From the NCBI RefSeq assembly GCF_027947535.2, contig NZ_JAAGKO020000015.1, positions 62,001-126,000 of the forward strand: a DNA stretch of 64,000 bases, read 5' to 3'. The position numbers and the translations under genes were made by a program. The stretch is from Streptantibioticus silvisoli. Its GTDB lineage: Bacteria; Actinomycetota; Actinomycetes; Streptomycetales; Streptomycetaceae. Each line of letters starts with the position of its first letter. The first letter of the stretch is position 1. The notes below the pieces were generated by a model. That model was not told where the DNA came from and ran no database searches. It saw only the letters and a list, made by a program, of their open reading frames with translations. Positions 12,253 to 47,674 of the stretch are shown in pieces.

Positions 12253-14704
<2,452 letters not shown>

Positions 14705-14706
14705 GA

Positions 14707-14815
14707 CGCCTCTCCTCCCTTCGCCGGCATGACCCGGATCAGGTTCCTACGGTCGGCGGCCGTCCAGCCGCCCTCTCAGCCCGGTGCGCCGGGCTCCCGC
14801 GAGTGCAGTACGGGC
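14707..14815 (-). ncRNA. TPP riboswitch (THI element) controlling thiO-thiS-thiG
   Basis: Read on the minus strand, the leader contains the universal THI core: a GAGCCCGG...CCGGGC helix, then CTGAGA (14774-14779), a variable GGCGGC...GCCGCC arm, then GAACCTGATCCGGGTCATGC and GGCGAAGGGA. The GGAGGAGAGG ribosome-binding site of thiO overlaps the end of the element only a few bases before the ATG. No room exists for a terminator, so control is presumably by hiding the ribosome-binding site when TPP binds. Confidence 0.97.
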
Positions 14816-45371: not shown

Positions 45372-46169
45372 GTGGCCGGACCGACGATCCCTCAGCGCAG
45401 TGACCGGATGCCGCCGGCCCAGCGGCGCCCGGTGCCGCCCGCGCGGCCCCGCCGCCGGCTCACCCGGCGCGGCGCGCTCGCCCTGCTGGCGGCCGTCGCG
45501 CTGCTGGCCGGCGGCGTGCTGTACGTGCTGTACGGCTCACCGTGGCTGCGGGTGCGGCACGTGCGCGTCACCGGCACCCGGGTGCTGACCCCGGCGGCGG
45601 TGCGCGCCGCCGCCGGGGTGCCGGCCGGTGAGGCGCTGGCGTCGGTGGACCCCGGCGCGGTGGCGGCCCGGCTGCGCGCGACGCTGCCGCGGATCGCGTC
45701 GGTGCGCGTCCAGCGGTCGTGGCCGGACGCGATCGCGCTGGAGGTGACCGAACGCGAACCGAAAGCGCTGCTGAAAAAGGGCGGAAAGTTCGTCGAAGTG
45801 GACGCGGACGGTGTGCGTTATGCCACTGATCCGACGGCGCCGCGCGGAGTTCCGCTGGTGGAATTGACCGGCGCCGCCCGCTCCGGCTCTTCCGATGCGG
45901 CCTATTTCAGCACCGCGGTCCTGTTGCACTCGGCGGTGCAAGTGGCCGCCGATCTTCCCGAATCGGTACATAGCCAGACAAAATTCATCGAGGTCGGCTC
46001 GTTCGACGGAATCACCCTGGAACTCACCCGGGGCCGCAGCGTGCTGTGGGGCAGTCCGCAGGACGGCCGCCGCAAGGCGGTCGCGCTCACCGCGCTGCTC
46101 ACCGCGGACGCCGGGGCCGCGCACTACGACGTCAGCGCCCCCAGCGCCCCCGCGTCATCAGGGAGTTGA
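45372..46169 (+). CDS. ftsQ: Cell division protein FtsQ
   Basis: This 265-aa bitopic protein has a basic Pro/Arg-rich N-terminus, one membrane helix (ALALLAAVALLAGGVLYVLYG, about 35-55), a POTRA domain (WLRVRHVRVTGTRVLTPAAVRAAAGVPAGEAL in two parts, RIASVRVQRSWPDAIALEVTERE) and the FtsQ domain (FVEVDADGVRY ... GITLELTRGRSVLWG). It links early and late division proteins. GTG at 45372 follows AGGAGGCGGG. The ftsZ promoter region begins at its 3' end. Confidence 0.95.
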   Translation: MAGPTIPQRSDRMPPAQRRPVPPARPRRRLTRRGALALLAAVALLAGGVLYVLYGSPWLRVRHVRVTGTRVLTPAAVRAAAGVPAGEALASVDPGAVAARLRATLPRIASVRVQRSWPDAIALEVTEREPKALLKKGGKFVEVDADGVRYATDPTAPRGVPLVELTGAARSGSSDAAYFSTAVLLHSAVQVAADLPESVHSQTKFIEVGSFDGITLELTRGRSVLWGSPQDGRRKAVALTALLTADAGAAHYDVSAPSAPASSGS

Positions 46170-46444
46170 CTCGGAGTTCCGTATCGGTGACCCTGGTTGG
46201 CTCAGGTGGGGCATGATCACATAGGGTCGAAAGAAAAGCAGTAGGTTCGGCGTGTTCGTTGAACGAGTACGGCTTGTCGACTTAGTGTCCTGTCCAGGCG
46301 GACACAAGGAACGCTTTTAACCCTAACCCTAATCCTCAGGGTGAGGGTTGGGGTCGGCATCCGAACCGTCCCATCGGCATCCGCCGGTCCACCGCTTCCG
46401 TGGCGGACGGACCGGCACGTTAATCGAGGCGAGAGGCCTTCGAC
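46170..46444 (+). promoter_or_regulatory. ftsZ promoter and leader region
   Basis: This 275-base spacer is much less GC-rich than its surroundings, as expected for the multi-promoter region that drives ftsZ in vegetative and sporulating hyphae of Streptomyces. Likely -10 elements are CATAGGGT near 46215-46222 and TAGGTT near 46241-46246. A hairpin with a telomere-like AACCCTAACCCT arm lies at 46319-46349. GAGAGG near 46429 is the best ribosome-binding site. Which promoter is developmental cannot be told from sequence alone. Confidence 0.65.
46319..46349 (+). repeat. Inverted repeat with AACCCT units in the ftsZ leader
   Basis: AACCCTAACCCT (46319-46330) pairs with AGGGTGAGGGTT (46338-46349) at 11 of 12 positions, loop of 7. 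It lies about 95 bases before the ftsZ start and is preceded by TTTT. It could form a leader RNA hairpin or a protein-binding site. Confidence 0.8.
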
Positions 46445-47674
46445 GTGGCAGCACCGCAGAACTACCTCGCAGTCATCAAGGTCGTCGGTATCGGCGGCGG
46501 CGGTGTCAACGCCATCAACAGGATGATCGAGGTCGGTCTCAAGGGCGTCGAGTTCATCGCGATCAACACCGACGCGCAGGCCCTGCTCATGTCCGACGCC
46601 GACGTCAAGCTCGATGTCGGCCGCGAGTTGACCCGGGGCCTCGGCGCCGGCGCCAACCCCGACGTCGGCCGCAAGGCGGCCGAGGACCACCGCGAGGAGA
46701 TCGAGGAGGTCCTCAAGGGGGCCGACATGGTCTTCGTCACGGCCGGCGAGGGCGGCGGCACCGGCACCGGCGGCGCGCCCGTGGTGGCCAACATCGCCCG
46801 CTCGCTGGGCGCGCTGACCATCGGGGTGGTCACCCGTCCGTTCACCTTCGAGGGCCGCCGCCGCGCCAACCAGGCCGAGGACGGCATCGCCGGCCTGCGC
46901 GACGAGGTCGACACCCTCATCGTCATCCCCAACGACCGGCTGCTGTCCATCTCCGACCGCCAGGTCAGCGTGCTGGACGCCTTCAAGTCGGCCGACCAGG
47001 TGCTGCTGTCCGGCGTCCAGGGCATCACCGACCTGATCACCACCCCGGGCCTGATCAACCTCGACTTCGCCGACGTCAAGTCCGTGATGTCGGAGGCCGG
47101 TTCGGCGCTGATGGGCATCGGTTCGGCCCGCGGCGACGACCGCGCGGTCGCGGCGGCCGAGATGGCCATCTCCTCCCCGCTGCTGGAGGCGTCCATCGAC
47201 GGCGCCCGCGGCGTGCTGCTGTCCATCTCCGGCGGCTCCGACCTCGGCCTGTTCGAGATCAACGAGTCCGCCCAGCTGGTCAGCGAGGCCGCCCACCCCG
47301 AGGCCAACATCATCTTCGGCGCCGTCATCGACGACGCGCTCGGCGACGAGGTGCGGGTCACCGTCATCGCGGCCGGCTTCGACGGCGGCCAGCCGCCGAC
47401 CAAGAGCCGCGACAAGGTCATCAGCACCTACACCTCCTCCCCCCGCGAGGAGAACACCGGTTCGGCCGCGCCGCGGCTGGCCCCGCAGCCCACCGACAGC
47501 TCCCGGCCGTCCTTCGGCGGCCTGGGCAACCTCACCCCGCGCGAGCCGGTCGAGGCCCGCGACGCCGACGGCGAGACCCCGGCCACCCCGCCGATCTCGC
47601 CCCAGGTGCCGCCGGCCCGTCCCTACCAGGACAGCCAGGCCGAGGAACTCGACGTTCCCGACTTCCTCAAGTGA
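46445..47674 (+). CDS. ftsZ: Cell division protein FtsZ
   Basis: This 409-aa tubulin-like GTPase forms the Z-ring. It contains [30 protein letters not shown], the GTP-binding signature GGGTGTG at 103-109, the synergy-loop region [20 protein letters not shown] and a C-terminal peptide [10 protein letters not shown] that binds SepF and FtsW partners. A flexible Pro/Thr-rich linker joins core and peptide. GTG at 46445 is used because the family begins [19 protein letters not shown]. Expression is from the large promoter region upstream. Confidence 0.99.

Follow-up and report, generated by a model that had tools for sequence, protein, structure and literature searches.

What is the telomere-like inverted repeat that precedes the cell-division gene ftsZ in Streptantibioticus silvisoli? 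The question arose from a stretch of 64,000 nucleotides of this genome (contig NZ_JAAGKO020000015.1, positions 62,001 to 126,000 of the forward strand), hereafter the window. The ftsZ gene lies on the plus strand at 46445-47674 (NCBIfam TIGR00065, 422.7 bits, cut-off 295.2), and the open reading frame on its 5' side (45372-46169, plus strand) was taken as ftsQ from gene order and from the original prediction. That prediction described two telomere-type repeats followed by a complementary arm seven bases on, placed them in an AT-rich promoter region, and proposed a quadruplex on a G-rich complementary strand. The tandem AACCCTAACCCT at 46319-46330 and the complementary arm were both seen, and neither the tandem nor its complement had another occurrence in the window. 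The ftsQ-ftsZ spacer (46170-46444) is AT-rich relative to the window, with 59.3% G+C against 74.2%, but not in absolute terms. The G-rich sequence AGGGTGAGGGTTGGGGT had been assigned to the wrong strand; this right arm (46338-46354) lies on the plus strand, as does the C-rich arm.

The stretch comprising the tandem and the dyad (46319-46354, within the spacer) reads AACCCTAACCCTAATCCTCAGGGTGAGGGTTGGGGT. It holds a 35-bp imperfect dyad centred on 46337 (46320-46354, no strand assigned), in which 46320-46330 correspond to 46344-46354, with further inner pairs, and 14 of the 17 pairs between the 17-bp arms are strict Watson-Crick pairs. Folding with RNA parameters also paired 46320-46330 with 46344-46354. 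Ten equally good dyads were counted in the window, against zero to three in each of 20 dinucleotide shuffles; therefore, the palindrome alone is only moderately unusual, and its significance lies in having been conserved in an equivalent position across Actinobacteria.

The element is an already known kind of operator, here unusually symmetric. FtsR of C. glutamicum is reported as a MerR-type activator of ftsZ, and its operator, at which binding was established by ChAP-Seq and EMSA, is the 25-bp imperfect inverted repeat AACCCTAAAGTAAAGGTTGAGGGTA, conserved in Actinobacteria according to its discoverers (PMC6683498). The sequence AACCCTAATCCTCAGGGTGAGGGTT at 46325-46349 on the plus strand, also centred on 46337, matches this published motif and stands 96-120 bp 5' of the GTG start of ftsZ. 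A matrix derived from other families scored this core at 26.1 bits, against a best score of 5.7 in 40 shuffles. Genome-wide, it was the only match without mismatches to the pattern AACCCT-N7-AGGGTNAGGGTT; the other matches at up to three mismatches numbered six, three of them overlapping registers at the operator and three elsewhere, and a control pattern gave 1+1 matches.

The regulator itself is encoded elsewhere in the genome. FtsR was identified with 279.8 bits to NCBIfam NF050798 (curated cut-off 150), and its C-terminal part matches the structure of Rv1828, the M. tuberculosis FtsR (PDB 5ydc, E 3.4e-14). The cluster, located via the bfn gene, has the conserved and published order garA-ftsR-bfn-merR, where garA encodes an FHA protein and merR is a second MerR gene. 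With high probability, the dyad serves as operator for FtsR, a dimeric regulator of the MerR family whose dimers would bind the duplex inverted repeat and raise ftsZ transcription, as has been described in C. glutamicum. We infer the binding, the sign of the regulation and the promoter geometry in S. silvisoli from analogy with that system. The likeness covers the 25-bp imperfect inverted repeat, its position in the ftsQ-ftsZ spacer and an FtsR encoded after garA/odhI, whereas S. silvisoli differs in an additional left AACCCT, which makes both arms tandem, and in the promoter context, its site probably lying 3' of an upstream promoter. Rv1828 is an orthologous regulator acting on the same gene; its site at ftsZ P1 is reported between -35 and -10 (discussion of PMC6683498), whereas in S. 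silvisoli the TTGACA that precedes many sites is replaced by CGCTTT. A named regulator with a precise 25-bp target replaces the telomere and quadruplex idea, and would provide a control point for ftsZ in a filamentous actinomycete beside the inputs already known from Streptomyces, WhiA/WhiB and BldD.

The match to the FtsR operator supports the regulatory element that had been predicted in the ftsZ promoter region, and the conservation suggested for other ftsQ-ftsZ spacers was borne out. We compared the ftsZ-upstream sequences of 80 named genomes and of genomes from the order and class of S. silvisoli, and found the same element across relatives, usually as AACCCT-N7-AGGGTTAGGGTT in the ftsQ-ftsZ spacer. 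The cross-locus site scan scored 257 loci, those with fewer than 150 upstream bases being left out. The ordinary site is asymmetric, with one half-site on the left and two on the right. Among the fetched 400-bp ftsZ-upstream stretches, the tandem AACCCTAACCCT was present only at the window's own locus (L015), and the extra left half-site, AACCCT at 46319-46324 on the plus strand, is the source of the telomere-like appearance. Because the left half-site is doubled in S. silvisoli, two registers overlap, 6 bp apart and on opposite strands, the second FtsR-type site occupying 46319-46343 on the minus strand (one mismatch to the pattern, 16.4 bits). A second register above 5 bits was found in 139 of the 144 sites from outside Streptomycetaceae and was present in 20 of 74 from Streptomycetaceae. 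Additionally, NNGACA precedes 144 of 218 sites by 13 bp and was removed in the window by the change, which left CGCTTT.

The co-occurrence of site and regulator was surveyed in 295 genomes of the class with at least 95% completeness, of which 272 had FtsR above the cut-off. For spacer scoring, 131 of the 295 were picked, namely all 23 FtsR-negative genomes and 108 FtsR-positive genomes spread over families; apart from 11 already fetched, they were picked before the spacers were seen. One genome with only 59 bases upstream (G106) was dropped, and the remaining 130 were scored with a leave-one-family-out matrix, each against its own 40 shuffles. As a result, the site stood above the shuffles in 107 of 107 FtsR-positive genomes and in 4 of 23 FtsR-negative ones, a difference for which Fisher p-values overstate the evidence because the joint losses represent few independent events, mainly in one clade. 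The two lowest FtsR-positive genomes among the 107 scored 3.6 and 6.2 bits.

The loss was clearest within family f17, where 15 FtsR-positive genomes scored 36.1 to 39.5 bits and 18 FtsR-negative genomes -13.4 to -2.4 bits. In these 18 genomes and in G266, garA and bfn were found with no ftsR match between them, and the ftsZ site was gone. We infer that the f17 FtsR-negative genomes are Nocardiopsis-like (spacers L185-L195, L201, L204, L213, L222, L223, L225 and L227; clusters L302-L319), because the named loci of Nocardiopsis (L070), Thermobifida fusca (L072) and Streptomonospora (L073) also have neither site nor FtsR. L072 and G161 share an identical spacer on contigs of equal length and are probably one species, so that they are not independent. 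This joint loss of ftsR and the ftsZ site, observed directly in the genomes, supports the proposed FtsR-ftsZ link well outside Corynebacterium. As a separate observation, TTGACA was still present in eight of the fetched class spacers lacking FtsR and in L072 and L073.

Some genomes departed from the rule. Among the discordant FtsR-negative genomes, G058 and G121 had no bfn match and the contig of G093 ended beside bfn; therefore, ftsR is probably missing from these three assemblies only. G010 and G033 carried a site with no FtsR detected, and their weak or absent bfn match again points to assembly gaps. In G279 (genus g10; L200 and L320), the garA-bfn gap is 97 bp, ftsR is cleanly gone and a 28.7-bit ftsZ site is kept, so that the site was either retained without FtsR or is used by another protein. 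The reverse case was found in family f3, where 12 of 12 spacers examined had no site (at most 2.6 bits; L121-L127, L131 and L134-L137) and FtsR exceeded the cut-off, alone or with neighbours in frame, in 10 of 14 genomes. Eight of these 12 spacers belong to genus g19, all with a diverged FtsR above the cut-off. FtsR therefore does not always imply an ftsZ site, and the f3 protein may be either rewired or binding a different sequence. Low site scores were also obtained for three FtsR-positive named loci, L083 (2.9 bits), L084 (9.8 bits) and L105 (10.1 bits).

Around the operator, the promoter context was assigned by eye and by conservation. The candidate upstream ftsZ promoter (46259-46288, plus strand) would consist of TTGAAC (46259-46264), 18 bp and TAGTGT (46283-46288); a scan for consensus sigma-70 promoters and terminators found nothing. 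The operator would probably sit 3' of the start site of this promoter, in the leader of its transcript, and bound FtsR could double as a roadblock for transcripts from it. Conservation in relatives extends to a GCGTGT element near 46250. For WhiA of S. venezuelae, the consensus GACAC and a ChIP target 158 bp from ftsZ are reported (PMC3781837); a possible contact was placed at GACAC on the minus strand of 46285-46289 (GTGTC on the plus strand) because 46445-158 = 46287. A second candidate WhiA contact, GACAC at 46301-46305, lies between the upstream promoter and the operator. Classical MerR operators, likewise palindromes bound by a dimer of the family, are described in promoter spacers of 19-20 bp (PMC9909328). 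The 25-mer is preceded by TTGACA or CTGACA, 13 bp away, at 100 of 218 sites and, in 97 of these 100, a NANNNT-like hexamer follows 19 bp on, a MerR-type spacing that is suggestive only, because hexamer and FtsR motif overlap. In contrast to the classical arrangement, the Streptomycetaceae and the window do not have that TTGACA.

A leader position would also suit an RNA hairpin in the 5' leader of ftsZ that acts on translation or on the stability of the transcript; we regard this reading as quite improbable. The region 46300-46445 folds as RNA at z = -3.37, and transcription from the candidate upstream promoter would make the element part of the leader. However, the six outer pairs, compared over 148 distinct sites, deviated to A-C 54 times and to G-U 43 times, and this lack of a G-U bias counts against an RNA stem, in which G-U changes would be expected to be favoured. 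When all 12 pairs are counted, G-U deviations numbered 149 and A-C 92, but 77 of the G-U cases came from the single pair 11-15. Moreover, Rfam gave no match up to E 1, the distance from site to start codon varies from 37 to 310 bases, the C. glutamicum site is reported 5' of a mapped start site, at -61 to -85 (PMC6683498), and the site is lost jointly with a DNA-binding protein. A structured RNA leader was rejected, as the pairing is not kept through G-U changes and Rfam has no match. These sequence comparisons make binding of FtsR to double-stranded DNA the best explanation of the element.

If the site is bound as duplex, its user might be a regulator other than FtsR, be it BldD, WhiA/WhiB or a protein as yet unknown, with the link to FtsR being coincidental. 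WhiA/WhiB and BldD are reported to control the ftsZ region in Streptomyces (PMC3781837, PMC4850268), and G279 keeps its site without ftsR. This explanation is nevertheless very improbable, given that the WhiA consensus GACAC is not part of the dyad, that the motif matched is the FtsR motif, backed in C. glutamicum by the ChAP-Seq and EMSA of PMC6683498, and that the site is lost jointly with ftsR.

A G-quadruplex on the G-rich plus strand regulating ftsZ, as in the original prediction, is extremely improbable. Three tracts of at least three G are present at 46339-46353, and an intermolecular or two-tetrad fold is conceivable; however, the canonical motif (four tracts of at least three G, loops of 1-7) is absent from both strands in 46301-46380, whereas elsewhere in the window it occurs 26 times on the plus and 44 times on the minus strand. 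Among 218 homologous sites, just 4 were accompanied by the motif within 20 bp on either side. The canonical quadruplex was rejected for want of the four-tract motif, and we found no literature on a G-quadruplex upstream of ftsZ in Streptomyces; the element is very probably not a quadruplex. Nor is it a telomere: a telomere-type repeat array was rejected, with two copies on one arm at one place in the window, and the likeness is incidental, arising from a 6-bp half-site that this one genome has doubled.

With FtsR as the preferred regulator of the ftsZ site, its own cluster was searched with the ftsZ-trained matrix. Of 60 garA-ftsR loci, 39 had a site ahead of ftsR, with a score reached by 0 of 100 shuffles. 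Outside Streptomycetaceae, 15 of 30 loci have a site of at least 12 bits, unmatched by shuffles, on the 5' side of the first candidate start of garA, the first gene of the cluster. Strong sites lie at L338, L340, L341, L342, L346, L347, L348 and others, the strongest being those of L348 (39.0 bits) and L342 (32.3 bits). Their position suggests autoregulation or a control of GarA by FtsR. The Streptomycetaceae sites inside garA were set aside; they are coding, in a constant frame and in a conserved PSTS-x-GGF-like stretch, and were not counted as support because protein constraint may explain them. The garA-ftsR region of the window's genome (L142) has no site above 5 bits, and neither does L345, the single f6 locus inspected, have a garA-upstream site. 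A three-mismatch match overlapping the start codon of ftsR in S. silvisoli was put down to chance, since 1+1 matches across the genome were obtained with the control pattern too.

The discoverers of FtsR suspected a functional link with GarA (PMC6683498), and in the titles, abstracts and listings searched for FtsR/Rv1828 an action of FtsR at garA was not reported. The ChAP-Seq table of the same C. glutamicum study includes no odhI/ftsR peak, so control of garA would not show in that species. Our wider proposal is tentative and somewhat doubtful as a whole: FtsR may also control the garA-ftsR operon in many actinobacterial families, closing a loop that connects 2-oxoglutarate metabolism, through GarA, with division, through FtsZ, and the operator may be a nested two-register site whose second register was partly regained in S. 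silvisoli by the AACCCT doubling. The garA-upstream sites make this link between metabolism and division directly testable. Elsewhere in the window, a TPP riboswitch was detected at 14698-14810 on the minus strand with 62.5 bits.
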